A stretch of DNA of 64,000 bases from a virus: the IMG/VR virus record IMGVR_UViG_3300034101_003860, positions 1 to 64,000 of that record. One strand, written 5' to 3'. The notes under the pieces were generated by a model. The model had not been told where the DNA came from. It saw nothing but the letters and a program-made list of their open reading frames with translations, and made no database searches. Below, in pieces: positions 1-39,600 of the stretch (its first letter is position 1; each line of letters begins with the position of its first letter). The translations under genes were made by a program, and so were the position numbers.

Positions 1-912
1 GTATTAGAAATTTTAGCCGGTATTAAGCAAAGCGAGCAAAATAATAGCCCTAAGTATATTGATGATATTTTAGGAGATATTGATATTCATGGTTATAATT
101 TAGACCACATTGTGGAAAAGGTCTATGAGTATTATACCTCTCAGTTTAAACACCACGAGTGGTTGCCAAAAGATTTAAAAGACGCCCGTTTGTGGGTCAA
201 TAAGGCTATCGCAGACCACAATGGTATGTTTGATCCACGCTCTAGGGATATAGTACAACCAGAACAACATTTTGATATTGTTATAGATAAGCCTTGGGCA
301 GAATATAAGTACGAAACAAAAGAGGGTGTGATAGAAGGAAAATTGGCCATAAAAGGCACTATTGATCTTATTACCAAAGTTAACGATTCTACGTTAGAAG
401 TTATAGACTGGAAAACTGGCAAAAGACTAGACTGGGCTACGGGACAAGAAAAAACATTAGAAAAGCTATATGTGGATCCTCAATTAAAAATCTATCATTA
501 TGCTTTAAGTAAACTTTATCCAGAATATGATCACATAATTATGTCTATTAATTTTATTAATGATGGTGGCGCTTTTAGTATGTGTTTTGATAAATCCGAT
601 CTATTAGCTACTGAAGATTTGATACGTCAAAAATTTGAACAAATTAAAAAATGTATCAAGCCCAAATTAAGTAAAACTTGGAAATGTACCAAATTATGTT
701 ATTTTGGAAAAAACACTTTTGAAAATCATAAAAGCGTATTGCCAATACTAGAATATAGAGATAATCAAGTTTGTACAAAGGGCTCTTATATGACTATGTG
801 CGAACAAATTAAGCACGACACCGAATTGAACGGCATGAAAAATGTAGTTGACACCTACACGGTGGACGGTTATAGTGTTGGTAAGTACAAAAGCCCAGGT
901 TCCGTAGAATGA
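1..912 (+). CDS. RecB/Cas4-like PD-(D/E)XK nuclease, 5' end cut by window edge
   Basis: The reading frame is open from the first base, so the start lies outside the window. The visible part carries the PD-(D/E)XK core: a GTID strand near nt 355-366, an IDWKTGK strand near nt 403-423, and a QLKIYHYAL helix that matches the Q/Y motif of RecB- and Cas4-type exonucleases. Four cysteines near the C-terminus (CTKLC, then two more) resemble the iron-sulfur cluster of the Cas4/AddB group. Such enzymes process DNA ends in recombination or phage replication. The stop overlaps the ATG of the polymerase gene (ATGA), so the two are probably translated together. The family call is firm; the exact role is inferred. 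Confidence 0.8.
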   Translation, partial: VLEILAGIKQSEQNNSPKYIDDILGDIDIHGYNLDHIVEKVYEYYTSQFKHHEWLPKDLKDARLWVNKAIADHNGMFDPRSRDIVQPEQHFDIVIDKPWAEYKYETKEGVIEGKLAIKGTIDLITKVNDSTLEVIDWKTGKRLDWATGQEKTLEKLYVDPQLKIYHYALSKLYPEYDHIIMSINFINDGGAFSMCFDKSDLLATEDLIRQKFEQIKKCIKPKLSKTWKCTKLCYFGKNTFENHKSVLPILEYRDNQVCTKGSYMTMCEQIKHDTELNGMKNVVDTYTVDGYSVGKYKSPGSVE

Positions 913-2780
913 CAAAGTATATTCCTCTGCATCTACATTCTCATTTTTCTTTATTAGATGGGCTTAGTCAGCCTGAACAAATAGCAGAAAGATGTAAAGA
1001 AATTGGAGCCACTACTTGTGCATTGACCGATCATGGGAATATAGCAGGATCGGTAAAGTTTTACATGGCTATGAAAAAGGCTAATATTAAACCAATACTA
1101 GGTTGTGAACTTTACGTTTGTGAACAAGATCCAAAAATACAAGAAAAAGAAAATAGATCATTATCTCATTTTATAGTTTTAGCACAAAATTATAATGGGT
1201 GGAAGGATCTAATTAAGATTGTATCCGAATCAAACAAGCCAGAACATTATTATCATAAGCCTCGGTTGGATCTAAAAACAATAGCTAATTTAAATAGTGG
1301 TAATCTCATAGCTATTACTGGACATTTAGGGTCCACACTATCTGATATGATCCTTAATGGATATGAACTAAAAGATAATTGGCTAGACATCGGCAAACAA
1401 CATGTGTCATATTTAAAAGAAATATTTCAAAACAAAGTATTTTTAGAAGCTCAGTTAATAGATAAAGATAATTTGCCGGTGCAAGAAATTCTAACAAATG
1501 CTATCAGAAAAATAGGTCAAGAGACTAATACAAAAATTATTTGCACTCCAGACGCACATTACTGTAGAAAAGAAGATGCTATAGATCAAAGAATATTATT
1601 ATGCAATAATCTTAAAACAACTTTCCCAGAAATTAGTCGTAAGATTAGTAATGATGAAGATGTGGCTTTGTCTTGTTTTTTTACATCAGAAAATTATCAT
1701 ATACCATCTCAAGAAGAAATGAGAGAACTACATACCTCTGAAGAAATAGAAAATACTAATTATGTAGCTAATCTTATAGAAGAATATAGTATACTTAGCA
1801 AGCCAAAGCTTCCGCCTTTTCAATGTCCTAATAATCAAAATCCAGATGAATATTTAAGGCAATTGTGTAGAGACGGATGGAAAGACAAAATAGCAAATAT
1901 AATAGCAAAAGAAGAGCAAGAACAATATGTTGATAGAATTAAATATGAATTAGAGGTATTACAAGGTGCTGGATTATCTAGTTACTTTTTAATAGTTCAA
2001 GATATTGTTAATTTTGTACGAAAAAATGAATGGTTGCCAGGACCAGGTAGAGGTAGCGCTGCTGGTTGTTTAGTTTCATATTTAATTGGTATTACTAGCA
2101 TAGATCCAATAAAATATAATCTATTATTTGATAGGTTTTATAATGCTGGTCGCAATTCTGCTGATCATATTAGTATGCCAGATATAGATGTAGACGTACC
2201 AATTGATAAAAGAGAAGCTATCATAGAATACATCAAAAATAAATATGGACACGATAAAGTTTCACAAATGATTACTTTTAATACCATCAAGGGGAGAGGA
2301 GCCTTAAAGGATGTATTAAGAGTATATGGTAATATTAGTTTTGATGAAATGAATAAGATTACCAAAAATATACCAGACGAATCTAAAATTGCTGATGAAC
2401 TTCAAGAAATGAAAGAGGAAACCGGGGAATCTTCTATTATCCGCTGGGCATTAGAAAATAATGTTGACAAACTCAAAGAATGGTGCTATATTGATGATAG
2501 TGGACAATTGCAGGGTCCGCTGGCCAAAAGATTTGAACAAGCTATTAGGCTGGAGGGAACAAAATCAAATCAATCTAAACACGCAGCAGGAATAGCTATT
2601 AGTTCTGAGCCATTAAATGAAATTTGTCCTATGGTTTATGATAGTAAAAATAAACAACTAATTGCTGGCATGGAAATGCAAGACTTAGAAAATATTGGAA
2701 TTATTAAGTTTGATATTCTTGGTGTAGCAATGTTAGATAAAATTATGACGATTAGATTTTTATTACAACAAGGAGTATAA
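909..2780 (+). CDS. dnaE-N: DNA polymerase III alpha subunit, N-terminal half (split DnaE)
   Basis: This 623-residue protein matches the first half of bacterial DnaE, the replicative polymerase. The PHP domain is at the N-terminus with metal-ligand motifs present (HLHSH, TDHGN, PDAHY). The palm follows with PGPGRGSAAG near residue 377 and the catalytic PDIDVD near residue 424. The third catalytic aspartate is in IKFDILG near residue 601. The protein stops about 20 residues later, where full-length DnaE continues into the fingers. That remainder is encoded separately at 3640-5256. No intein N-terminal sequence follows the break. The PHP ligands look intact, so it may keep the ancestral PHP exonuclease activity. 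The start overlaps the upstream stop codon. Confidence 0.93.
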   Translation: MTKYIPLHLHSHFSLLDGLSQPEQIAERCKEIGATTCALTDHGNIAGSVKFYMAMKKANIKPILGCELYVCEQDPKIQEKENRSLSHFIVLAQNYNGWKDLIKIVSESNKPEHYYHKPRLDLKTIANLNSGNLIAITGHLGSTLSDMILNGYELKDNWLDIGKQHVSYLKEIFQNKVFLEAQLIDKDNLPVQEILTNAIRKIGQETNTKIICTPDAHYCRKEDAIDQRILLCNNLKTTFPEISRKISNDEDVALSCFFTSENYHIPSQEEMRELHTSEEIENTNYVANLIEEYSILSKPKLPPFQCPNNQNPDEYLRQLCRDGWKDKIANIIAKEEQEQYVDRIKYELEVLQGAGLSSYFLIVQDIVNFVRKNEWLPGPGRGSAAGCLVSYLIGITSIDPIKYNLLFDRFYNAGRNSADHISMPDIDVDVPIDKREAIIEYIKNKYGHDKVSQMITFNTIKGRGALKDVLRVYGNISFDEMNKITKNIPDESKIADELQEMKEETGESSIIRWALENNVDKLKEWCYIDDSGQLQGPLAKRFEQAIRLEGTKSNQSKHAAGIAISSEPLNEICPMVYDSKNKQLIAGMEMQDLENIGIIKFDILGVAMLDKIMTIRFLLQQGV

Positions 2781-2781
2781 G

Positions 2782-2964
2782 ATGAAAACAGTACAGTTTA
2801 AAGATGTTCCTGTAGACAGTAATTTTAAAATGAATGATACAGAATACAAAAAAATCCAGGAAGAAAGAGTTAGTTGTTGCAGATTTAACAATGCTTGCTT
2901 GGCGAGCGACGCTAACCAAAAAACTGGAATTAAGCCACTAACAGAAGTACAGGTAGATGATTAA
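2782..2964 (+). CDS. Small hypothetical protein inside the split polymerase locus
   Basis: A 60-residue protein of unknown function. The start follows AAGGAG with good spacing. That ribosome site overlaps the end of the polymerase half-gene, so translation is coupled. It has three cysteines around SCCRFNNAC and an acidic C-terminus (VQVDD). The sequence recalls small conserved phage proteins, but I cannot assign a role. It lies between the two polymerase halves and overlaps the exonuclease gene by 8 nt. Confidence 0.75.
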   Translation: MKTVQFKDVPVDSNFKMNDTEYKKIQEERVSCCRFNNACLASDANQKTGIKPLTEVQVDD

Positions 2965-3643
2965 TTATAATAAAATTTGCGTATTTGATTTTGAAACCGA
3001 CGGTTCCGATCCCAAAACCTGTAGTCCTGTGCAAATTGCTGCTGTGATTATAGATCCTATTAAATTAGAAATTATACCCAATTCAGAATTTAATATTAAT
3101 TTCAAACCAGAGGTACTGGAACAAAACGATGATTATGTTTATACCACAGATATTTTAGATTTTCATGGTAAGGTTAAAGGATGTTCTAAAGAAGACGTTC
3201 TAAATGAATGGAAAAACTATCCAAAACAACAACAGTCTTGGAATATGTTTGTGAATTATCTAGATAAATATCATTCAAGATCTTCTAAGAAAAGTCAATT
3301 TAGTGCTCCGATAGCGGCTGGTTATAATATTCATAGATTTGACCTAAAAATTATTGATAGATTAAGCCAGAAATATGACAATGTAAATAAAGAAAATACA
3401 TCAGACATTTTTTATCCTAGAGATATTATAGATGTTATGAATTTAGTTTTTTATTGGTTTGAGCATAATCCTGATCTAAAGAGCTATAGTATGGATAATT
3501 TACGAGAATATTTTGGTATAGATAAAGATGGCGCCCATGACGCTATCAAAGATGTTAAAGATACAGCAGATATTATGATTAGATTTATGAAACTACACAG
3601 AAATGTAGCCTCTAAAGTTAAGTTTAAAAACTCATTCAAATGA
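2957..3643 (+). CDS. DnaQ-like 3'-5' exonuclease (DEDD family)
   Basis: A 228-residue protein with the three DEDD exonuclease motifs in order: Exo I as FDFETDG near residue 9, Exo II as GYNIHRFDLK near residue 122, and Exo III as HDAIKDVKDTAD near residue 195 (the H-x4-D form). DnaQ homologs proofread for DnaE-type polymerases. Its position between the two alpha-subunit halves suggests that it is the epsilon-like proofreading partner. It overlaps both neighbours by a few bases, which points to one translationally coupled replication operon. Confidence 0.87.
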   Translation: MINYNKICVFDFETDGSDPKTCSPVQIAAVIIDPIKLEIIPNSEFNINFKPEVLEQNDDYVYTTDILDFHGKVKGCSKEDVLNEWKNYPKQQQSWNMFVNYLDKYHSRSSKKSQFSAPIAAGYNIHRFDLKIIDRLSQKYDNVNKENTSDIFYPRDIIDVMNLVFYWFEHNPDLKSYSMDNLREYFGIDKDGAHDAIKDVKDTADIMIRFMKLHRNVASKVKFKNSFK

Positions 3644-5256
3644 AAAAATTCAGTTATAATTGTGGTTGTTGTTTTGATATATTGGACGAATCTAAAAAAA
3701 GCATTCAATTTGATCCATTTATAGAAAATATTAATTTGGAATGTTCTAGAACATGGGATCTAATTAGCGAAGGAAATACTAAAGGAATATTTCAATTAGA
3801 ATCACGCTTAGGAAGATCTATCGCTAAAAAACTCAAACCTGAAAATATTGAACAACTCTCTGCTTTAATTAGCATTATGCGTCCCGGTTGTCTTGAAGCA
3901 ATTCGCGGAGGTAAAAGCGTAACCAATCACTATATAGACAAAAAAAATGGTGAGGAATCTCTTGATTATTTTCATCCATCGTTAGAACCCATATTGAAAA
4001 CAACATATGGAGAAATGATATATCAAGAACAGGCTATGGAAATTGCTAAGAATATTGCTGGGTTCAACTTGCAAGAGGCTGATATGTTGCGTAAAGCTAT
4101 CGGCAAAAAGAAACCAGAAGAAATGGCAAAGATTAAAACTAAATTTTTAGATGGAGTAGCTAATACAAAAATAGTTAATCAATCAGAAGCAGAGCAAATC
4201 TTTGGTTGGATCGAAAAAAGTCAAAGATACTCTTTTAATAAGTCTCATAGCGTAAGTTATGCCGTTAATGCTTACCTTTCTGCATACGCCAAGGCTCATT
4301 TCCCCAAAATCTTTTTTGCCTCATATCTAAGATTCGCCAAAGACAAAATAGATCCTCATGAAGAGATTAAAGCCCTGGTTCAAAACGCAAATGAAATGGA
4401 TGTTAGTATTAAAACTCCAGATCTTAGAATTATGAATGAATTTTTTGTTTTAAAAAATAATGATATTTATTTTGGTTTAACAGATATAAAGGGCGTGGGT
4501 TCGTCGGTCTTTGTAAAATTAAAGAAAATAGTAGAAGCATTAAATCAACCACTATCAGAGATGTCCTGGCCTAAAATATCTTTTATGATATTATCCAATA
4601 TAAACTCTACTGCCGCTAAAGCTTTAATAGAGAGTGGGGCGACATCCTTTATTAAAAAAACAAGAACCTGTATGCTTTTTGAACAAGAGCTTGTCTCTTT
4701 ATTAACTAAAAAAGAATCATCCTACATAATAGATAATATTAACAAATACGCAACTGTTAAAGAAGCTTTAGAAGACTTACTATTAAACAGTAAGATTAAT
4801 AAAAACAGAAAAAAAGTAATCTCTGATGCTATTAATATGATACAAAATCCACCCTACTCTTTAGAAGACAGTCCGGAATGGATAGCGGATGTTGAGGATA
4901 CTAATCTAGGTTGTGCAATAACGTGTTCTAAAGTGGATATGTATGATATCAGTATGACAAATGCCACTTGTAGAGATTTTAAAAATGGTATTAATAACAA
5001 TAATTTAATTATGGGCGGAGAGATAGATTACATAAATATAACAAAAACTAAAAATGGACAAAATCCGGGCGAAGAAATGAGTTTTGTTACTATGTCTGAC
5101 GGAACCGGATCTGTTGATTCTATCATATTTTTTCCAGAGATATATAAGAAATATAAGTCTATATTATTTTCTGGTAATGTGATTATTGTTTGTGGTAGTA
5201 GGTCTAGATCCAAAGACAGCTTTGTAGTAGAAAAGGCTTATGTTGCAAAAACTTGA
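3640..5256 (+). CDS. dnaE-C: DNA polymerase III alpha subunit, C-terminal half (split DnaE)
   Basis: This 538-residue protein picks up where the N-half stops. TKGIFQLESR, MRPGCLEAIRGG, TYGEMIYQEQAMEIA, ADMLRKAIGKKKPEEMAK and SFNKSHSVSYAV are signature blocks of the DnaE fingers and nearby regions. Further on are the helix-hairpin-helix-type GLTDIKGVGSS and a C-terminal OB-fold (GGEIDYINITKTK...SDGTGSVDSIIFF). The two halves together are about 1161 residues, the normal length of DnaE. The break falls in the linker before the fingers. No intein C-terminal sequence precedes the extein-like start, so the halves probably assemble without covalent joining. The start overlaps the exonuclease stop. 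Confidence 0.92.
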   Translation: MKKFSYNCGCCFDILDESKKSIQFDPFIENINLECSRTWDLISEGNTKGIFQLESRLGRSIAKKLKPENIEQLSALISIMRPGCLEAIRGGKSVTNHYIDKKNGEESLDYFHPSLEPILKTTYGEMIYQEQAMEIAKNIAGFNLQEADMLRKAIGKKKPEEMAKIKTKFLDGVANTKIVNQSEAEQIFGWIEKSQRYSFNKSHSVSYAVNAYLSAYAKAHFPKIFFASYLRFAKDKIDPHEEIKALVQNANEMDVSIKTPDLRIMNEFFVLKNNDIYFGLTDIKGVGSSVFVKLKKIVEALNQPLSEMSWPKISFMILSNINSTAAKALIESGATSFIKKTRTCMLFEQELVSLLTKKESSYIIDNINKYATVKEALEDLLLNSKINKNRKKVISDAINMIQNPPYSLEDSPEWIADVEDTNLGCAITCSKVDMYDISMTNATCRDFKNGINNNNLIMGGEIDYINITKTKNGQNPGEEMSFVTMSDGTGSVDSIIFFPEIYKKYKSILFSGNVIIVCGSRSRSKDSFVVEKAYVAKT

Positions 5257-5280
5257 CATAGCATCGCGCTATGTTATAAT
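5253..5280 (+). promoter_or_regulatory. Promoter of the SSB gene with an operator-like inverted repeat
   Basis: TTGACA at 5253-5258 and TATAAT at 5275-5280 are separated by 16 bp. Both hexamers are perfect sigma-70 matches. The perfect 7-bp inverted repeat ACATAGC/GCTATGT, separated by 5 nt, overlaps the end of the -35 box and fills the spacer, as expected for a repressor site. The promoter overlaps the end of the polymerase C-half and lies about 45 bp before the SSB start. Confidence 0.85.
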
Positions 5281-5324: not shown

Positions 5325-5696
5325 ATGAATATTGTTATGTTACGAGGTAATCTTGCACGAGATCCTGAGCTAAGAACCGTTAATATTGGAGATAAACAAA
5401 CTTCTGTAGTTAATTTTACAGTTGCTACATCTCGTGAATTTACCAAGGCTAACGGAACACAAGATAAGATTACATCTTTCATTCAGTGCGAGGCTTGGGA
5501 CAGTGGAGCCGAAGCGGTGGCCTCGTCTTTAAAGAAGGGCGATTTGGTCATGATAGAAGGAAGTCTAAGGAATGATAGTTGGGAAAAGGACGGGGTTAAG
5601 CATAGCACTCTTAAGGTTAGAGTAAATAATTTTGCTCCAATTGTTAAGGCTAAGAAATCTAAAACCAGTAATGAAACAGAAACTGTGGCGTTCTGA
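5325..5696 (+). CDS. ssb: Single-stranded DNA-binding protein
   Basis: A 123-residue bacterial-type SSB: an N-terminal OB-fold with MLRGNLARDPELR, NFTVATSREF and SFIQCEAWDSGAEAVASSLKKGDLVMIEGSLRNDSW, then a short C-terminal tail. SSB coats single-stranded DNA at the replication fork. The tail ends in VAF and is short, so the usual acidic DDDIPF tip for partner binding is absent or changed. It has its own strong promoter and an AAGGAGC ribosome site, and a terminator follows, so it is a single-gene unit probably made at high level. Confidence 0.95.
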   Translation: MNIVMLRGNLARDPELRTVNIGDKQTSVVNFTVATSREFTKANGTQDKITSFIQCEAWDSGAEAVASSLKKGDLVMIEGSLRNDSWEKDGVKHSTLKVRVNNFAPIVKAKKSKTSNETETVAF

Positions 5697-15398: not shown

Positions 15399-16005
15399 TG
15401 GAGGATATGCTTATGGCTATTTGTTTATGTCACAAAACAAAGAAGCAGAATACGTGTTTAAAGAATTACTTAATGAAATTAGACCATCTCGCATTCTAGA
15501 AATTGGCACATTTCACGGAGGTCTAACTCTAATGCTAAGAGATATTTTAGATTCATACAATCTACATAATAGCACTATTAAAACCTATGATATTAATAAT
15601 CAAGAGTTTTTAAGACCTCTAGTAACAAATAGGAAAGTAGAAGTTATTACAGATAATTTATTTAATGGCGACTACAGCGATTTCAAGAACGAATCTAAAA
15701 AAAATGAAATATTAAACTTTATTCAACAAGAAGGTTGTTCGCTAGTGCTGTGTGATGGTGGGTGTAAAAGGTGTGAATTTAATTTGATAGCTCCATTATT
15801 AAAAAGTAATGATATCATTATGGCCCATGACTATGCTCCAAATAACGATTACTTTCAACACCATATAAGGGGTAAAATTTGGGATTGGATGGAGATACAA
15901 GATAGCGATATTTATCAAGCTATTGTAGACAACAATTTCAAATCATTTAAAGAAACGTTAACTCAACAAGCCGCATGGTGCTGTAAAATTAAGTCTAGCA
16001 GTTAG
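15391..16005 (+). CDS. Class I methyltransferase-like / cephalosporin-hydroxylase-like protein
   Basis: The start at 15391 follows GGAGAAGTTAT and overlaps the preceding stop. The 204-residue product has the AdoMet-binding loop SRILEIGTFHGGLTLML, an acidic second strand (TYDINNQEF), and LVLCDGGCKRCEF followed by SNDIIMAHDYAPN. This pattern fits the Methyltransf_24 / CmcI-like group, whose members modify sugars or small molecules. It closes the sugar block and ends tail to tail with the Thr/Pro-repeat gene on the other strand (11 nt overlap). Confidence 0.7.
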   Translation: MVDGGYAYGYLFMSQNKEAEYVFKELLNEIRPSRILEIGTFHGGLTLMLRDILDSYNLHNSTIKTYDINNQEFLRPLVTNRKVEVITDNLFNGDYSDFKNESKKNEILNFIQQEGCSLVLCDGGCKRCEFNLIAPLLKSNDIIMAHDYAPNNDYFQHHIRGKIWDWMEIQDSDIYQAIVDNNFKSFKETLTQQAAWCCKIKSSS

Positions 16006-17668
16006 GTGAATAACAGTATGTTGTACCAGTAACTAAACCGGTATTGCTACTATTGTCATTAAATGTTGCATCTCCATTTACTTCTTCACTATTATATGAG
16101 ATATCATAAAAGAATGCATTTCCATAAATAGATCCAGCATTACCAGAAGTATTGTAAAAAGATACATTTCCGGTAATAGATCCAAAATTATTATAGGCTC
16201 CGCTTTTAAATATAGCATTACCAGTTATTGAACCATAACTCAAAACAGAGTTTGCATCAAAAACAGCTGTTCCACTAATATTTATAGTGATACCAACATT
16301 AATAAATGGGCTAACATACATATTACCTACTGTTGGAGTACTACCAGAATTATAAAAAATATTACTATTTAAAGTAACATTATTAGAGCTGGTTGGTAGT
16401 GCTACAGCTTGAGTTGTAGAAGAACTATCTTGCCACCAATTATTAATATTGTTCCAATCTTGATCGTAAGATGGGCTTGGTCCAGTATTGTCATTGAAGT
16501 ATAGCATCGTTAAGGTAGAAGACGATGATGGAGTAACGCTAATGGTCGGAGTTAGTGTTGGAGTAACGCTAATGGTCGGAGTTAGTGTTGGGGTTTCGCT
16601 AATTGTGGGCGTTAAAGTACTGGTTGGTGTTGGAGTAGGTGTTTCGCTAATACTAGGAGTTAAACTAATAGTAGATGTTCTGGTTGGTGTTCTAGTTTGT
16701 GTGGAGGTTCTGGTTGGTGTTCTAGTTTGAGTAGGAGTAGCAGAAGGTGTTCTGGTGGGGGTATTGGTCTGAGTAGGAGTATTTGATATTGTTGAGGTTA
16801 CTGTTAATGATGGAGTTACTGATATTGTGGAGGTTCTGGTTGGTGTAGAGGTTACGGTTGACGAAGGTGTATTGCTAATAGTTGTGGTGGATGTTCTGGT
16901 TGGAGTAGGCGTTGCTGTTAATGTTCTGGTGGGAGTTGGCGATTCTACCGGAGTTAATGAAGGAGTTCTACTAACACTTATTGTTGGGGTAATGGTTAGA
17001 GTGTTTGTGGGGGTTTTAGAAGGAGTTCTGGTATTAGTAGATGTAAAAGACGGAGTATTAGTAACTGTAGAAGATGGGGTAGAAGTTTGCTCAGGAGTAA
17101 CTGATCTTGTTAATGATGCTGAATTAGTGGGTGTTTTTGATGGTGTTTTAGTAGGAGTTAATGATGGAGTAGCGCTAATAGTCGGAGTGGGTGTAGGCGT
17201 AGAGCTTCTGGTTCGAGTAGGGGTTCTGGTGTGAGTTGCGCTATTAGATATAGTAGGAGTATTAGTAGGATTTGGCGTATTTGTAATAAATGTAGGAGTT
17301 AACCAAGATTCAAAATTTACAGGAGATTTAGTTAGAGTACGAGATGGACTAACTGTTGGTGTTCTAGTTAGCGTAGGAGTTCTTGTAAGAGTAGGAGTTT
17401 GAGATATACTTAATGTTGGAGATACTGTTTGACTCACAGAAACAGTAGGAGTAGTAGTTGGAGTTTGTGTAGCGCTATTGGTAACAGTTCGAGTAATAGT
17501 TGGAGTTGGGCTAGGGGTCACACTCTTAGTAATGGTCGGAGTAGGAGAACTCGTGCTTGTACGAGTTGGTGTGTTAGTTTTAGTAGGAGTACGAGTAACA
17601 GTAATTGTTGGAGTAGAAGTTTTAGTTGGTGTTCTTGTTTGCGTACTAGTTGGCGTTGGAGTTGACAT
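15995..17668 (-). CDS. Mucin-like Thr/Pro-repeat protein with C-terminal beta-repeat domain
   Basis: A 557-residue protein. About 375 residues are low-complexity TPT, TxTPT and SxTPS repeats with Arg, Val and Ile interspersed. Such extended stalks are often O-glycosylated. From LYFNDNTGPSPSYDQDWNNINNWW the C-terminal part is an ordered beta-repeat domain with units such as GNAxF...GSIxGNVSF, likely a solenoid and probably the receptor- or sugar-facing tip. It is the last gene of the late block, where tail fibres are often encoded. The DNA repeats make length changes likely. It may be a substrate of the adjacent glycosyltransferases (inference). Confidence 0.8.
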   Translation of the reverse strand: MSTPTPTSTQTRTPTKTSTPTITVTRTPTKTNTPTRTSTSSPTPTITKSVTPSPTPTITRTVTNSATQTPTTTPTVSVSQTVSPTLSISQTPTLTRTPTLTRTPTVSPSRTLTKSPVNFESWLTPTFITNTPNPTNTPTISNSATHTRTPTRTRSSTPTPTPTISATPSLTPTKTPSKTPTNSASLTRSVTPEQTSTPSSTVTNTPSFTSTNTRTPSKTPTNTLTITPTISVSRTPSLTPVESPTPTRTLTATPTPTRTSTTTISNTPSSTVTSTPTRTSTISVTPSLTVTSTISNTPTQTNTPTRTPSATPTQTRTPTRTSTQTRTPTRTSTISLTPSISETPTPTPTSTLTPTISETPTLTPTISVTPTLTPTISVTPSSSSTLTMLYFNDNTGPSPSYDQDWNNINNWWQDSSSTTQAVALPTSSNNVTLNSNIFYNSGSTPTVGNMYVSPFINVGITINISGTAVFDANSVLSYGSITGNAIFKSGAYNNFGSITGNVSFYNTSGNAGSIYGNAFFYDISYNSEEVNGDATFNDNSSNTGLVTGTTYCYSPNC

Positions 17669-27682: not shown

Positions 27683-30600
27683 CTATGAGTTCGGGGAAGC
27701 GCCCATAGCTCCACCTGTTTTATCCCAAATCTTGCCCATTGCCTTCTTAATTTCTGATTGCATCATAGTCTCAAAATCTTTCTTTAAGCCTTCAAATGCT
27801 GCGGCTCCACTAATTCTCACATCAACAACGTGATTACCCCTCATTTCTATAACATCAGGGATTGTTGGAAATTCAAATGTTACTAATTTATCCACATAAC
27901 TAGCAAAATTAGTATTAAATGTATTTAATTTTTCAATACTAGTTGGATCTATAGTAAGTAATTGACCTTCTGTTGGTGTTGTTGATGGTATTTGTTGTGT
28001 TGTGGTTTGTTGGTTTATAAATGACGCTTGAGGAGGCATAGTAACCGGAACAGGAGCGGATACTACTCGATTAGCCGCATTAGCATTAGCTAGTTCCAAT
28101 CTGTTTGGAGTAATAGGCTTATCACTTACTTGAGGTTGAGGAGTAGCCATGTTTTGGATAGCGCCGACCGCATTACCCGCAACATAGCTACCCAAAGCTC
28201 CCGCAGGACCCATAGCTGTTTGTAAGGCTTGGCCTGTACTCATTTCAACTCCAAAAGCTCCCGCTATTGCTTTGATAGGGGTTGCTATAACGTCTAATGC
28301 TGTGGCTATCACAGGAGAAATAGCATTAATTGGCGCTAATAGTGCGGATACTCCTGCGGATACTTGATTTATTGCTGGAGTAAATACTGAAGCAATAGCT
28401 GCTAGTGTTGCATCTTTGGTATTTATACCCTCGGATAATGAGGCGATAGCCATTTGTTCTAATGCGGCGAACGGAGCTTGTAGGTTGTTCAATGCCTCTA
28501 AAACTTTAGCATCACTAACAGCTAATCCTGGTTCTCCGCTAGCAAGAGAGCCAAGGGTATTCATAGATTCTAATAGAACATCTAGTCTTTCTTGTAATCC
28601 AACATCATGAGTATATATGCTTCCGCTTTGTAGTGCTGCTGTTGCCATTTGAGCAACTAGATCTAGAGGACTTTGTAATTGGGCTACTGATGTTTGAACT
28701 CCTTCTGTGGCCGATTTAACTTCTGTGTCGGTTTTTCCTTCTGCTACTGGACCAGATACCTGAGCAGCATCTAGAGGAGAAGGTTGACTAGTTACTTGAC
28801 CTTGTTTTTCTTCTGCTGTTTTACTTTGTTCGGCTAATATTTGTTTTTGTTTTGCTAGTTCTGCTTGTTGAACAACTAAAGCCTCCTTAGAAGCATCTAA
28901 GCTACTTTGTGCTCCTAAAACATTTGGGTTAACAACTTGTCCACTCTTGTCTTTTAAAGTTCCAGCTCCCATAGCAGCAATTCTGGCTGCTTTTAATTTA
29001 TTTTCTCTCTTAGCAATTTCTTTTTGTCTATCTGCTATTAGGGGTTCTAAATTTTTAATTTCTGCGGCAGCAGCTTTTTTTGCTTCTTCTTTTTGTCTAG
29101 TAGCTTTATCTTTGACCGGTTGTTCAGTACCCGGGGCTGGAGGAGCTTGTATGGGTGCTTTTGGAACACCGGCCACTTCTACTTTTGTTTGTGATGGAAT
29201 AACTACCTGTGCTGATGGCTTAGCAACAGTACCAGCGGCTACTCTACCACTACCATCAGTAGCTACTGGCCTACCACCCTCTCTGGTTTGTACAGCGCGA
29301 TCAATAGCATCTTGTGCTTTAACTTTGTTTGCTTCTGTTTGTTTAGTTTTTTCTTCTGCTTTTGCCCAATATGCTCTTTGAGCCTCTAGTGAGGTTTCCA
29401 TTTCTCTAACCGCTTTATCTTTTGCTGCTAATGGGCCAAACTGACTAACAGTTTCTTTTCCTCCAGCTATCATTTGTTTAGCTTTTCTTTCTTTAGTATT
29501 AACAGCTCTAACTTCTTCTGAGCTAGAGAAGTATCCTAACTTATCTCTATCTTTCTTTGCTTCATTTAATAGTGTTTGACCTTGATCTATTTGTGCTTGT
29601 CCTTCTGATACTCTTGTTTCAGCATACGACGGTTCTGGTGGTTTTTTCTCCGGTTTAACTTCTGGTTTTGTTTGAGCATCCGTCTGTGCGTTGGCTGCGG
29701 CATTCGCCACAATATTTGGAAAATCTTCTGTTAGTTTTTTCCCTAAATCCATCATAGCTGCTGCTAAAATTTCTGATTGTGTCTGATATATTTTTCCTAA
29801 TTCAATGTTTGCTTGAGCTTGTATTTCTGTTGCTTCTCTATAGGCAATAACATTAGGATCGGTTTCGTCAATGCCTCCTTCTAATCTTTTAGTTAATTCA
29901 TCTAATGTTATATCTTTGCCAGCAATATTTTTAACAACATCTGTTCCTTTAAACGCTTGGCCAGTAGCTGGATTGATTTGAGATTCAAAACTTTTTCTAA
30001 TCAATGAGGCTCGTGTTTGATTATACTCATCTTTAGTCATAAATCCACGCTCTTGTTCTAATCCAGCAAAAGCATTTTGTCTATTTTGTCTACTCTCAAA
30101 AAATTCTGGACCAGATACTTGAGCAGCATTAAGGGCTACCGCTTGAAGTTCCATCTTGGCTAATTCTTGAGGTTCCGCAGTAAATACCTTTTGTGCAAAG
30201 TCCGCAAAACCTTCTATTGCTTGTTGTTGCTCCTGAATTTTGCCTAAAGCATTCGCGGCCTTAGTGCCATCATTAGCCAATTTTTCTAATGCTTGGCGAC
30301 CTTCTGCGGATGCTACCGTTAACTCTCCTACAGCTTGAATATTTTCTAATTGAGCTTGATTAAGCTGTTGTCTTAATGGATCTCCTGCTGGACCAGCAGG
30401 AATATTAGCTCCTGCTGCGGTTAATTCTGGGCTAGCTTTTTCTATTGCTTGTTTTCTTTTTTCTGCTGATGTAATTGCTGCGGCAATAGCTGTGGGATCA
30501 GATGATGCTCCAGCAGCAAGGTCTCCAGACTGTACTAATCCACCAGTTAGACTAGATATTTCCGCATCAAATGGTTTATTTAGTTCTTCTAAGCTAGGAC

Positions 30601-33600
30601 TTCTACCAAGAGCTTTAGCAAGATCTAATTCTGCATTTAATCTAACTTGATCAGCCTTCCTGAGATATGATCCACTTTCTAAGATAGCTTTATTATAATC
30701 TGCTTGGAATTTTCTAGCTTGTTGTAGCGTATCATTGTATTTTTTAGTAACATTTTGTAGCTGTTCCAAACCTTTACCAACTGTGGAAAATGATTTTGTT
30801 ACCGTGTCTTGTAGTTCAGCTTCTGATAAACCTTGTCCTTTAGCCAATTCATTTTTGAGATCTCCCAATATGGTATCTATAGCTGAACCTTCTAATCCTT
30901 GACTACTTAGTAAGTTTTTAACAGCCTCTAGTGCGTTATCTTGAGCGTCTGTATCTTTTCCTGCTGTTCTAAGCAAAGCTGGAATTTGATCTTGAACAAG
31001 TTTTTGTCCTACTGCTTGATTAGCAAGATTTTGTGCTTCTGGAGTACCTCCTAAAAATCCTGCTGTTGCGTTTGCTGCTGCTCTTACTTCTTCGGTTGAA
31101 TAAGCTGAAACGTTGCCTAATACTTGTTCATTTGTTCTATTGACCTCTCTAGTACTAGTATCTCCACCCAAACCAGAGACAAGAGCATTTACGTCAGAAC
31201 TAAACTGGTCCAATTCATCGCTATATCTTTGAGCTTCAGCGCCTATTCTTCTATAAACATCTAATAAGCTTTCTGTAGCTATAGCAACTTGTTTTGTGGC
31301 TTTAGCTAATAAATCTTGTTTAGCTGCTAATTCTCCTTGTGTTTTTAGTGCCTCTTCACCTTCTTTTTGTGCTGCTCCTCTGTTGCTAGAAATTTCTTTA
31401 GCTATCTGCTCATCTGTGGCGCCAGATTCTTTACGCTTTTTCATATAAGCATCTAAAGCTGCTCGTTCTTTGGCCTGAACAGTAATGCTTTTTGTTTGTT
31501 CTGCTGTTAGTTGTTTTGTTCCATTAGCAGCTTCTGCTGCTTTTAATGCTCCTTGAATATATTGTTCTGTTATGGGGTTCAATTCGCCCGTACCAGTTTT
31601 AATATTATCAAATATTTTACCTACTTCTTCTGTGGATTTGAATTTTAATCCAGATTCGGCGAGCCTAGCAGCAGATTCATTTCTTTGACCGGCTCCTCCA
31701 ACCATAGATCCTATAGCTTCTGTTCTTTGTGCTTCACTAGGAGCACTAAAATAGTCAACCAATAAACCTCCTCCAGTAGCGCCAAAAGCTGTTTGTAGTC
31801 CTCCTAATACTATCTTACTAATATCTCCTTCGGCAAAACCAGTGGATACCTTGTCTACGCCTCCAGTAAAAGTTGATCCTATACTTTCAACTCCAGTTTT
31901 ACTGAACGCTAAATCTTCTATAGGTTGACCGGCTGCTAAAACATCTCCAAAAGCTTTTTGAGCATTTTCAAGATTAACAGCACTAGCTTCTGATTCCAGT
32001 TTTTTAAATGCTTGATCTAAGTCTCCAGTAGTTTTAGCAATATTCTCTAGAGCGTTGGTAAGTATGGCTTGATTTTTACCACTAAAGAATCCTTGAATAC
32101 CTCCGATAATTGCTCCTCCAACACCACCAATAAGTGTTCCTATCGGCCCAGCAAAGCTACCCAATTGGGCTCCTATCGCCGCTCCGCTACCAGCGCCTCC
32201 TAGAGCCCCTAATGCCCCAGCAGTATTTGGGTCACTTGTTACGCTCTTTGGTAGAAATTGTTTAAGAGCTTCCGCACCTGTTGCTACTCCAGCACCAATG
32301 CCAGTAAATCCTCCAGCACCAGCAAAAGCTCTACTTAACTTGCCACCCTTACCACTAATAAAATCAGCTCCAGCTCCAAGACCTTTGCCGATACGAGTTT
32401 TAGAAAATTTTTCTGTTAATCCAGGAGCAAATTCTGCTAATCCGCCAAATCTTTGACCTTCTTTACTAGATATAAATTGTTGTTCTTTAATTTTTTGTGG
32501 AGAAATTTCTGCTCTTAAAGATTGTTCGCTTAATCCTGCTGCCTCTGCCACTCTTTTAAAAGCTTCGTCTAAATTTTGAGTTTCGGTAAATGTTTTATTA
32601 AATACTGCTTGAAGTTCGCTATTAGCTTCTATGATTTGTTTAACTGACTGATCTCCTTTTGCCAATCCTTCTGCCAATTTTGTTGCTGCTTTTCTAGCTT
32701 CACCCAAGCCTAGGTTAGGATCCACTTTACGCAAACTGGCTGCAAATTCTTCTATAATGTTTTGAACCTTAGATGCTTCTTCTCCAGTTGCTCCTTCTGC
32801 TGTGGCTTTGGCCACATCAACACCCTGAAGCTCTCTTGCTCTACCAGCAAATGTTGTTTGCGCTTCTGTTTTTGCAAATTGTCTTTCTTGTCCGATAGCG
32901 TATGCCTGAGTTCCTATTTGTTTGGTTAAATCTTGTCTAAAGCCACCAACTGTTTTTCCAGCTTTTTCTGCTTTATAAGCAAAAAATTGTTGTTGTTCTT
33001 GTCTAATTTGTTCGTTTACTTTTGGCATTCCAGACATTCCTGTTGCTGAAGCATCTGCTGCTTTTTTAGCGTCATAGAACGGGTCTGCTGCTCTAGCTTT
33101 AGTTTCCCTTAGTTGTTCTACCTGTTGTCTTTTTGAAGTTGCTATTTGTTCAGGGACTTTCGCTTGTTCTGTTTTTATTTCACCGGTTTGAGCCGCTTCT
33201 ATACTGGCTTTGGTATCTGCTATAGCAGATCTTTGTTGTTGTATTAAATTGGCTTCTTCTTTAGAATTTTTACCAGCAGCAGCTATTCTCGTAGCATAGA
33301 AAGCTCTAATATTATCGACTTCTGTTTGTAATATATCTTGATATTTTTGAGTAACATTTTTACGAACTTGTTCCATAGCATCGGCAACTTCTTGATCGGC
33401 AGTTTTTTGCAAATCTGATTTTGCTTTTTCTTTATTGGCGTCAGGAGTATTAGTCGATACTGTCGCTGCTTTTTTTGCCTCCTCTACATCTACTGCTTTT
33501 TGTCTAGCCTCTGCTACCTTGTTTGTAGCTTGCGATTTTCTTGATTGTGTTTCTCCTAGTTGTGTCTCCGCTGCTTTTACTGCATCTTTTGCTGTTTGTC

Positions 33601-36600
33601 TTTCGGTTTGAGTTGAAGATTTTCCAAGGTTTTGTTTTCTTTTTTTAGCTTCTTCTAATTGTTTTTTTGCAGCGTCTTGAGCTTCGGTAGCAGCTTTCAG
33701 TTCGTCTAAAGCAGCTTTCTCCTGTTTTTGAGCTGATTCTTCTCTGTATTTTAGAACTTTACTAGATACAGGGTCAATAGTTGATGATCCACCAAAATCT
33801 TCTCTAACCACACCGACAGCTCTTGCTTCTTCTCTTGTTAGTCCACCTTCTCTAGATTTAGCTGTATATGCTTCTTTTCTTTTTTTGCGTTCTTCTTTAC
33901 TAAGCCTACCTTCTTGTTGTGGTTTTGGTTTTTTTTGTTTATCATTTGGTGGATCTGGTGGGCTTGGTGGAAATACAAAAGATGGTCCAGATGGTGGAGC
34001 TGGTGGTAAACCAGATGGTGGAATAATTGGTAATGGAGGTTGTGGTTTAGGTGTAGATGCAGAAGTGTCTATGTCGGAAGCTTCTAGTCCAGCATATGTA
34101 TATCCGGTTTCTCCTAAAGTCTTAGCCAATTCTGCCATTCCGGTTTTAGCGTCGGTTGTAGAGGTTATAATTGCCCTAACTTCTGGACTAGCTTTAGCAA
34201 AAAACTCTGCAAATAATTCTTTACCACGTAATAAATAATCATTTATTCTATTACTACTTTCTCCAGCTGCTATAAATGCTTCTTCCATTTGTTTTCTAAT
34301 TTTAGCAACCAATTCGAATTGAAAGGTTCCTTCAATTTCACTAGCAGCTTTACCCCCACCCAACTCAAAGTCTGCTAAATGACCAGTTTCATGAGCTACT
34401 GTTTCTGTTGTTGCTCCACCTTTTTTACCGGTTATTTTTAAGCCTATAGCAGCGGCTGATTCTGAGGAGGCAGCTTGTCCTCTTGTATTTTCTGTAAAAG
34501 CTGGGGTACCACCCATTAAACTCTCGCCCGGCTCTAAATCTTTTAATCCTTTAAATTTTTTCAATAAAACTTCTCTTATTTGATCCGGTAACTGAGCCAT
34601 TATTTGTGCTAAAACAGCGCCAGCTTGCTCTACATCCTGTAAGATTTCTCCTTGTGCTCTTTTTGCGTCTTTTTTGTTTTGTCCACCTTTAAAGAATTTT
34701 CTAACTCCAACACTACCCCCTTTATTTAATCCCAAAGCCTTAGTAGCTTTTTCTCTTATAACATAGCTACCTGTTGGTAGTCCTATGGGACCAATACTAT
34801 CACTAGTTCCACTACCTGGCCCATTAAATACGCTAATACCACCACCGGCAAATCCTTTCATTCCGTTGCGATCAGCTTGATTCATCTTATCTAATTTAGC
34901 GTAACCAATTTTCTTAGCTACTTTTGGAGGAACAAAAGCTTCTCCATTACTAACCATAGCTGGAACAGTGCCAGAACTTCCTCCACCAGCAAGTTTTTGT
35001 ACTAAGTTTGGATTATTAATATCTGATGGACTTTTACTATATCCACTTTGTAATATCCATGCTGGGTCTGTAGCTGATGGCCAAGTATCTGGTGGGCCAT
35101 ATAATTTTTCATCTAAAAGTCTACTATTACTGACCCAATTCTCGGGGTTCAAAGGCGTTTTCTTAACATCAGATCTATTATTAAAATAGTAAGCCCATAC
35201 ACTCTTAGCAGCATCGCTTACTGTTCTTCTGTCTGACGTAAGCATACCACCAGCGGCTGTAGCAGCCTCCATAACAATATCATAAAGTTTTGGACCATAC
35301 CCCTTTGTGGCAGAAGATGATTGCACAGCATAGAGCCCACCTCCTATGCTATCGGCAATAACCTGTCCAGATCTTGCTGCCGCTGCTTCTCCCTCTTTTA
35401 TGTATGTGGCTTGTATTCTATTTCCTGTTCTTAAAGCAACTTTACCAAAATTCTTTTGTGTTTGGCTTGATGTAGATTGAACCGGTTCGGCTAGTAAGCC
35501 ACCAGCCGCTAATTGTTCTGGATTCATTAACTTAGCGGCTAATTTATCAGAATATGCTTGTAATTGTTTGAGATTTCCTGGCTGTTGGAAATTTAATCCA
35601 CTGTCACCAGATAAGCCACCCTTTGATTTAAGAGCGCCCATTAAGTTGTAACCGAAAGCGCGTTTTCGTTTGCTGATTCTGAATTGTATTTCTGGATATT
35701 TATCAATTATCTGTTGTTTAATTTCTTCAAATCCTGGACCATCAGCTTTGCCTCCGAAAGCAAAATTTTGAACTATATATTTTTGAGCCTCTGCCCATAA
35801 TCTACTAACAGCACTACTATCATTAGTGCGCTTAGTATCTGTTGGCATCTTGGGATCGATTCCCCATGTATTAGCAGCATATCCTAAGCCACTAGGATAG
35901 TCTATAGGTCTAAGAGGATTAGCGTCATCCGAAGAAATTCCAATCCCTAATTGTTTAACAATTTCTTCCAGACCATAACCTTCCATAGCAGCTATTGCTC
36001 TGTTTGAAGACTGATTAGCAGCACTTATATTTTGTGGTTCTCTATAAAGATAACCCAATTTACCAGCACCTGTAACGGCTCCGATATTTTCTAAATTATC
36101 ATCTACTAAAGTTTCCAATTCAGCAAGATTATCTACTTTATTCAATCCTCCACTAACTCCTGTGATCTTACTCTCTGGTATCGGTAATCCAAGAGAGGAT
36201 AATTTTGATGCTAAAAGCGGAGCATTACTTTGTGGTCTGGCTGTTAGTACTCGTATTTTATCCATTAATTCTGGATAATCTATTAATCTTTTTGCTAGTT
36301 CTTTACCCAATAGTGTTAGCTTAGAGTTTTGCAGCGAGTCTCTAACTTTTTTCAAGTCACTATAGTCTTCATTTTTCTTACCAGGAATATCTGCATCTTT
36401 AACAAGAGTTTCATCAAAATCAAAAGCTAATGGACCAATCGCTCCAAATATATCTGTATATTGAAATTGTTCTGCTCCTCTGGCTGGCAACCCAGCAATA
36501 TCTTGTTGTATTTTAGATACAGCGTCAGCGTATCGTGTTGGTAAACTTTTACGAACTAGCTGTGTTAAATATTTTGTGCTTCCATCCTTACCTAATAATT

Positions 36601-39600
36601 CTTTTGCACTAGTAATATTAGAGTATCCAAGTTCTCCATTAGGTCCATATAAACTAGCTAGTCCAAACTTAAGACCTTTTCCCGTAGCAGCTTGTTCATT
36701 GAGTTGTTTTTGTCCTGCTTGTTGTGCTTTCTCAGCCTCTTTTTTTTCTTCTGCTTGTTTTAATAAAGGTTCAATAATTTTTTCTAATAAGGAACCATTA
36801 TCTAAAGATTTTAATGAGGGAAGTGTTAATAGTTGTTTCGCGGTGCCTACTTTTGGCATCACCGCTCTAGCTTTTGCTACGGCTTTTTGAATTTCATCAT
36901 AAGAAACATTTGCAGTAATATAACCACTACCACCAACTTTTTGTATTCTATCAAGAATTTGTTGTGAAATTTTTCCAACAGGAGTTTCTACACCACCAAC
37001 TGATCCGGCCATAAATTTTTGTACTAATCCGCCATTAGCAAAATTTTTAGATTCTGGAATAGCTTGTCTCATAGCCCAAGCAAAATGAGATGCTCTACCA
37101 GTAACGGTTGGAAGAATATCTTTTTGATAATCTTTAGCTTCTTGTATAGCATTGCTAGCTTTTACAATTTTATCAAGAACGCTCTTGCGAAGTTTCTCGT
37201 CTTGAGTTTCTGATAACTCTTTTTCTAAAGATTTTCTGAAAGCAATAAGTCTCTCTGGAATATCTGGAATTTCATCTAGTAATGGTTTACCAGATATAAA
37301 CTCTCCACTTTTAGCAGATTGTTCAAATCGTTTTAAGAATCCGCCTTTTGTACCTGAATCTTTTTGATATCTGGCTATGGTTGCTTCTAAAACTTCCTTC
37401 GGTGCTCGCGGAGCTTGTTCAGCATACTTTAACAAGACATCCATAGGGACATTTTCTAAGCTAGATGAATCAACTCCGCCTGCTGTAGCAACCATTTTGC
37501 GCAAAGTTCTGGCGTCCATCTTTCTATGTACAGAGGCTTTAATTTTTTGTTCAGAGGCGAACGGAGATATTTTTTCTCTCCAAAAGCCTTTTTTGCCTAA
37601 ATAAGTTGTTAATTCAGATTCTAGTTCTGGTACTATTCTTTCTTGTGGTACTTCAACAAACTCATTCCCGATAACCATACCAGCACCAGCAGTACTAAAT
37701 ATATCATATGCTTGATCCTTAGCGTATCGTATTAGATCTTCTGTGCTAAGTTTATAGATTTCTTCTTGTGTTAATTCTTTGAACTTGCTACGAGCGCCCC
37801 GGGCTCCAGTTTTACCTCTCCCTTTACCGCTAGGAACATTAACGCCACCGACCGATCCAGCCATAAATTTTTGTACTATCCCACCCAAACTTAATGGAAC
37901 ATCAAAAGATGTATCTTCTCCTTCTTCAAATACTACTGCTCCGAAATTTTTTCTATTTTTTTCTCCCCCTGTAGCGCGATCTAGATATTTCTGAATTTTA
38001 GGTTGAAATAATTCTGGAGTTGCTCGATTTTTAGATAGTCTGGCATCTGTTGGCAAACCTATCAATTTGGTATTATCAAAAGCAGGAACATTACCTGGCC
38101 AATTACTATAATCGAAAGTTCCTCCAGCGCTTTCTTTAGTACCTCTTGGTTTAGACCTTCTAAGAGTTTGTTCTAATAAAGAACCTTTAACACTTCTATA
38201 TAATCTAAAGTTTTGAATAGAGGATTTTGTTTCATCTATTCCTTTTTTACCAGGAGGTAAGAATTGTGATTTACCTTTATTTACTATGTCTGCTAATCCT
38301 TGGTCAAGATAATCTGTATTAATAAATCCTGGCTCAGCATAATCGACAAAGACTTTTGCCTTACCTCCTTTAGCTAGTTTATTCATTTTAGCTAAATTGC
38401 CTCTTCCGTATTTTTGAGCAGCTTGGTTGTTGATCACAACCTCTCCGGGTTCTAGCATAGCAGGAACCTTATCTCCCTTTCCACTGCCTGGAACAATACC
38501 CCCCTTATTAAATCCTAATACCTTACCCCCACCTCTCAGAGTTGATGATCCTCTAGATCTCATGGTACTATCTAAACTTTGTACTGCTGATGTTAATGTT
38601 TTTAGAGCATCTGTATTTAATCTAATAGCATCTGCTGCTTTTGCTGTTACTTCTGCTCTTTGCTTCTCTTTAGCCCCACTTAAACTTTCTCCAATATTTT
38701 GACCAGCACCACCAGCGCCACCACCCTTTTTCAGACCGCCAAAAAAACCTGTGGCAAATTGCCCGATGGCGCTTACTCCTTTAATAGCTCCAAATACAGC
38801 TAAGATTGGCAATATTGGCTTAAATGCGCTCGCAAGACTGAGCAAGCCGCTAGTTAAACCAACCACGATTTTGAAAAATCCTTGAAAAACAGTGCTTTGC
38901 CCAACCTCACGAATCAAACCTAAAAATTGTTCACGAACTTTTGCTATTTGATTAGCTAAGCTTTGTTGTGCTTTTATCTGAGCGTCTGTTAAGCTGCTTT
39001 GTCCTCTTTGAGCAACACCCAAAGCTTGTTGTGCTACTGCAAATTGTTGAATTAAAGGAATGACTTTACCGATTTGTCTAAATCCACCAAGTTCTTCTAC
39101 TATTGTTGAAAATCGAATATCTCTGGGATCTAATTGATTAAGAGCATCACTAAGTCTTCTAATAGCTTCAAACGGACCAACGAACTTGCCTTCAAGATCT
39201 TGTAGTTCCACACCAAATTGTTTTAGTTGTTGGATAGTGCTACTTCTTTGAATTCTTGTAAAAATTGTTCTTAAGCCGGTAGCAATAGTCTCTGCACTTT
39301 CACGAGTAGTTTGACGAACACTAGTAAAAATAGCAATAAACTCATTTAGAGCATCGGTACCTTCGCTAACTCCTTTACTAGCACTAGCGAACACACCACC
39401 AGTACGCTGAATAGCAGCAATAATATCTCCAGATTCAACAGCGAACGCTGCTGCAACAGCATTGATACTACCTAGTGCTGCTTCTAGCTCTCCTGCTTCT
39501 AATCCGAACTGTCTAATCGCAGCAATGGCACCTTCTGTGGTTTTAGTTAGGCTTTCGAAAGATGGAGCCAGTTCTGTCTTAGCCAAAGCTTTAAGCGCTA

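Follow-up and report, generated by a model that had tools for sequence, protein, structure and literature searches.

The virus genome studied here very likely carries a fixed, inherited split in the gene for its DNA polymerase III alpha (DnaE) homologue, so that the polymerase would consist of two permanent polypeptides, with a proofreading exonuclease encoded between them and with the break acting as a slot through which genes are exchanged. The stretch of DNA analysed, referred to as the window, comprises bases 1–64000 of a 68,040-base IMG/VR virus record. Re-reading of its open reading frames placed four tightly packed genes on the + strand at positions 909–5256 in the order A, s, Q, B. A (909–2780) encodes the N-terminal DnaE part (PHP and palm, 623 aa), and s (2782–2964) encodes a 60-aa protein. 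Q (2957–3643) overlaps s by 8 nt and encodes a 228-aa DEDDh DnaQ-like exonuclease, and B (3640–5256) overlaps Q by 4 nt (ATGA) and encodes the C-terminal DnaE part (fingers, HhH and OB, 538 aa). The break, from the A stop codon to the B start codon, spans 2778–3639. The existence of a two-gene DnaE interrupted by a 60-residue gene and a DnaQ-like exonuclease gene, as originally predicted, is real, and the A-(s)-Q-B order was found in 227 locus records from a large, uncultured phage family.

A gene for a PD-(D/E)XK (RecB/Cas4-like) nuclease (1–912, + strand; PF12705, E = 2e-10), partial at the window start, precedes A, and its stop codon overlaps the A start codon as read from the sequence. An SSB gene follows B (5325–5696, + strand; PF00436, E = 8.5e-27). 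A sigma-70-type promoter with a perfect TTGACA-16-TATAAT arrangement lies upstream of ssb at 5253–5280 (+ strand), beginning at the last codons and stop of B; its −35 box overlaps the end of B and an inverted repeat (ACATAGC...GCTATGT) lies between the boxes. Similar −35/−10 patterns follow B in 15 of 125 relatives when a strict pattern is applied. Elsewhere in the window, a single 4189-aa ORF (27683–40252, − strand), which is very long for a 68-kb record, is probably a tape measure protein, and a 557-aa protein (15995–17668, − strand) consists of Thr/Pro/Ser-rich repeats over its first two thirds. In the segment 56200–64000, which continues to position 68040 of the record, G+C is 42–48%, up from about 28–41%; mostly small ORFs with almost no similarity to known phages are found there, and the segment represents a distinct module or else results from chimeric assembly.

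Domain content of the two polymerase parts

Pfam matches in A were PHP (E = 5e-37) and DNA_pol3_alpha (E = 1.8e-74), and those in B were the fingers (E = 1.5e-47), HHH_6 and a weak OB match below the Pfam cut-off. An AlphaFold2 model of B (pLDDT 89.6) matched solved DnaE structures along the length of B, which supports the OB assignment that is weak by sequence. When aligned with E. coli alpha, A corresponded to residues 5–563 and B to residues 585–901 and, through the OB region, as far as about 1055; the break therefore lies in the palm–fingers connector (E. coli about 564–584). The palm aspartates D425, D427 and D602 are all on A, with D602 situated 21 residues before the end of A, confirming the expected position of the break after the third catalytic aspartate and before the fingers. 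As all three aspartates are on A, B contributes the fingers and not catalytic acids. The idea that the catalytic centre forms from two chains therefore holds in that the polymerase fold needs both chains, but the metal-binding acids are not divided between them. The PHP ligands of A are H8, H10, D17, H42, E67, H87, H139, D215 and H217.

Jointly, A and B contain the elements of a DnaE-form C-family polymerase, that is PHP, palm with three aspartates, fingers, HhH and OB, whereas the single polypeptide of DnaE is replaced by separate ORFs in every clade member. The combined length of 1161 aa (623 + 538) is that of a normal DnaE, as noted originally, although the domain content is not, as the tau-binding C-terminal domain of E. 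coli was not detected in B. B also begins with an extra segment of about 28 aa (3640–3723, + strand) containing a CGCxF motif and unmatched in E. coli DnaE.

Conservation of the break and separation of the chains

Viral contigs were searched for loci using the sequences of A, of B and of a divergent B, and genes were assigned by HMM scan. A and B were separate with Q between them in 227 of the 230 locus records covering both parts. Among the 227 are the window itself and loci that overlap on the same contig, and there were 145 distinct full A sequences. The other three belong to distant polymerases that fall outside the clade. In L177 and L179 palm and fingers share one ORF, and L178 is split at the same place as the window with other genes in the gap. 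No unsplit member of the window clade was found in the viral-contig searches. The s gene was missing in two records (L236 and L247) and the CGC segment of B in a few (L243, L244, L248 and L258), indicating that both are dispensable, while the split and Q were constant. The palm aspartates were invariant among relatives, as were D11, E13, D129, H194 and D199 of Q in 136 sequences. The nine PHP ligand positions were kept in most sequences, some N-terminal gaps stemming from start-site picking. Pairwise pN/pS was 0.08–0.34 in all parts, including A with its tail, s, Q and B with its new N-terminus; A, s, Q and B are all under purifying selection. Although Q is broken in one relative (L113), the identical layout in the 145 distinct sequences, the purifying selection on every part and the invariant catalytic residues refute a decaying pseudogene or a sequencing or assembly error, which we regard as having practically no chance of being correct. 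The sequencing error that would have overturned the original prediction is thereby excluded.

Three database matches to 'gut phages' (L164, L165 and L167, about 33%) were rejected as probably bacterial DNA, in which dnaE is followed by a pfkA-like gene. One locus (L159) is a 9.4-kb contig within a Flavobacteriales MAG. Strong Shine-Dalgarno use speaks against Bacteroidota as host.

The gene junctions were overlapping or within 10 nt in 137 of 143 cases for A–s, 149 of 151 for s–Q and 137 of 141 for Q–B. In the window the Shine-Dalgarno sequence of s (AGGAG, 2771–2775, + strand) lies within the last codons of A. Of 130 distinct relatives, 120 (92%) have GGAG, AGGA or GAGG upstream of s, compared to a background of 8%, and this embedded signal accounts for A commonly ending in G-E/V/D (GGA G..). 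Shine-Dalgarno sequences were rarer before Q and B (30–35%), both of which overlap the preceding gene, as expected for translational coupling.

We considered whether an intron, trans-splicing or an intein that escaped recognition could still unite the halves into one chain. In relatives, this polymerase does contain inteins at other sites, among them a split intein in A. In L095, L103, L112, L118 and L156, A is broken between GPGRG and SAAG, and the two fragments carry intein halves that flank an endonuclease-like gene (L095:5100-6480), and in L018 and L156 a contiguous HNH intein interrupts B between RPG and CLEA (L018:10900-11850; L156:3850-4750). These intein-caused breaks are plainly visible and serve as an internal control, as no intein is visible at the A/B break of any relative. 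A Pfam scan detected no intein (Hint) domain in A or B, in agreement with the predicted difference from the split DnaE of cyanobacteria, and the break gave no Rfam intron match. Moreover, A stops about 20–30 residues past the palm with a Shine-Dalgarno sequence embedded in its end, and B has its own coupled ATG. The A–B interval ranges from about 0.7 to 4.5 kb in relatives and contains unrelated genes. In L047, L049 and L136, gaps of 1.9 to 4.5 kb hold further genes; those in enlarged gaps encode ThyX, an FkbM methyltransferase, unknown proteins and a DUF1559 prepilin-like protein (PF07596; L047:11265-12248 and L049:11978-12961). Gaps of this size with extra genes rule out simple read-through. 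From these data splicing at the A/B break is effectively excluded and a joined product is highly improbable; A and B are separate chains that very probably assemble non-covalently. DUF1559 prepilin-like genes are typical of Planctomycetota, and this cargo suggests a possible Planctomycetota host for these phages.

The nested exonuclease and the small protein

Q matched the RNase_T Pfam family (E = 2.9e-12) and phrog_192, which groups polymerase exonuclease subunits, and it contains the D, E, D, H and D residues of a DnaQ-like DEDDh enzyme. The intact PHP ligands noticed originally are thus accompanied by an intact exonuclease site, and the PHP site of A may constitute a second exonuclease. The PHP domain has proofreading activity in some bacteria (PMC3919608), and this precedent, together with the largely conserved ligands of A, raises the alternative that PHP proofreads while Q serves recombination or degradation. 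We consider this unlikely, as Q is present in every member with its translation tied to that of B, and as PHROG places it with polymerase exonuclease subunits. A second clade also argues against it, as an exonuclease belonging to that PHROG is nested there next to a PHP whose alignment shows no N-terminal HxH motif.

This second clade (L279–L358, IMG/VR) encodes a PHP-like protein of 248 aa, an RNase_T exonuclease of 226 aa, a small gene product and a palm-plus-fingers protein of 860 aa (for example L280:3396-7583). The break at the PHP/palm border, with the exonuclease and small gene nested in it, was present in 72 of 80 loci; in L351 the slot also contains a cupin gene. The second-clade exonuclease and Q both match phrog_192, but their profile–profile alignment was unconvincing, which points to a separate insertion event at a different domain border.

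The s protein has an invariant CC at positions 32–33 and is predicted to form a small beta-barrel. It matched no Pfam family, no PHROG family and nothing in INPHARED; a fold search gave weak similarity to eIF5A/EF-P structures (best E = 0.046).

Combining these observations, one operon would specify a C-family replicative polymerase as A, bearing PHP, palm and all catalytic acids, and B. The two parts would fold separately and restore the palm–fingers unit by associating with no peptide bond between them. Translation of s would start from the Shine-Dalgarno sequence in A, and overlapping stop and start codons would couple s, Q and B, such that Q is produced in step with B and acts on A and B as their proofreading subunit. 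The s protein is perhaps an assembly or bridging factor, and the break would serve as a stable slot, lying between A and B, in which genes can be gained and exchanged. A more tentative extension, which we put forward only as a possibility, is that the polymerase is an obligate complex of A, B and Q, perhaps bridged by s, that the slot is permanent and takes up replication nucleases (DnaQ-like or RNase HII), and that the nested layout arose at least twice at different borders.

Origin of the break and comparison with known systems

The distant relative L178/L277 is split as in the window, with 30% identity in B and a CxC motif at the start of B. Its flanks match those of the window, with the PD-(D/E)XK nuclease gene before A serving as a synteny marker (L277:6054-6836) and a glycosyltransferase-like gene after B. 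The slot instead contains a 110-aa ORF, RNase HII and a Zn-ribbon protein. In both trees L178/L277 is sister to the window clade (SH-aLRT 98 and 99). The presence of RNase HII in the slot of a distant syntenic relative indicates that the break outlives its contents, and we conclude that it either predates them or is independent of them.

While unsplit members of the clade were sought, a split cultured relative was found instead. In Rossellomorea phage phiT1 (gp20/gp19/gp18, PV767480; about 35% identity), DnaE is broken at the same place as in the window, after the last palm aspartate and before the fingers, and likewise consists of two chains without inteins and with a small gene between. Unlike the window, a 49-aa gene replaces s, and there is neither an exonuclease in the gap nor a CGC segment. 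No relatives of phiT1 gp20 were found in IMG/VR. The placement of phiT1 shifted with taxon sampling, being beside the window clade in one tree (support 89) and elsewhere in the other, so that one or two origins of the split are both possible.

The original prediction likened the layout to a mobile gene landing in another gene. This was not supported, as s and Q are inherited vertically, evolve under purifying selection and are coupled in translation, and the window gap contains s and Q only, with no free-standing homing endonuclease. A historical version, in which dnaE was broken by a homing endonuclease or split intein that subsequently disappeared, s and Q taking its place, draws on the fracture of the same polymerase at other sites, on an HNH-like gene in the A–s junction of L011/L012 and on the different cargo of L178 and phiT1. 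However, an intein remnant at the A/B break was found in no relative, the phiT1 break holds only the 49-aa gene, s and Q are without signs of mobility, and simple operon rearrangement fits the data equally well. A mobile-element origin is thus unproven and, in our judgement, rather doubtful. Whichever event produced it, a stably inherited break is the reading we favour.

This locus provides a natural system, stable in evolution, for asking whether a replicative polymerase of the bacterial type can function with its palm and fingers on different chains, divided beside the active site, as well as a ready-made split enzyme with its own exonuclease. It also shows that gene order within a broken gene can persist for a long time and that such a slot can be reused by genes of related function. 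Annotation built around a single long DnaE ORF, or designed to 'repair' fragments, would miss or mis-describe such polymerases.

Split phage DnaE is already known, in phiT1 even at the site seen here. The homologue is in two genes, as in the window, in Gordonia phage Suzy, Microbacterium phage JDawG, Rhodococcus phage Weasels2, Mycobacterium phage Papyrus, Bacillus phage Jayan and Staphylococcus Sextaecvirus, but the breaks are at the PHP/palm border, mid-palm or in the fingers, and no DnaQ-like gene was seen in the break of those inspected. Bacillus phages Jayan and PS1 (L161 and L163) have near-identical DnaE, but that of Jayan is split mid-palm, a break that either arose very recently or reflects a sequencing error. 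Cyanobacterial split DnaE is also in two genes, but with split-intein halves that are absent at the window break; those genes are far apart and their split position differs. Dassa et al. reportedly described in 2009 enzyme genes fractured with split inteins in environmental phages. The GPGRG/SAAG breaks in relatives are look-alikes of these, whereas the window break has neither IntN/IntC halves nor an endonuclease.

In group 2.2 jumbo phages the minimal Pol III alpha core is made as two proteins from genes located far apart, in addition to a family B polymerase (PMC7824862). The two-protein C-family core is common to both systems; in the window, unlike those phages, PHP plus palm and fingers plus HhH plus OB are in one operon. 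PolC, like the window, ties an exonuclease to a C-family polymerase, but in one chain, inside PHP (PMC3919608). Pbunavirus shares this tie, but there dnaQ adjoins an unsplit dnaE. The literature searched contained no paper describing a split DnaE with an exonuclease nested between its parts. What sets the window clade apart is a multi-domain polymerase encoded in one operon, with an exonuclease gene between its parts, across a broad clade.
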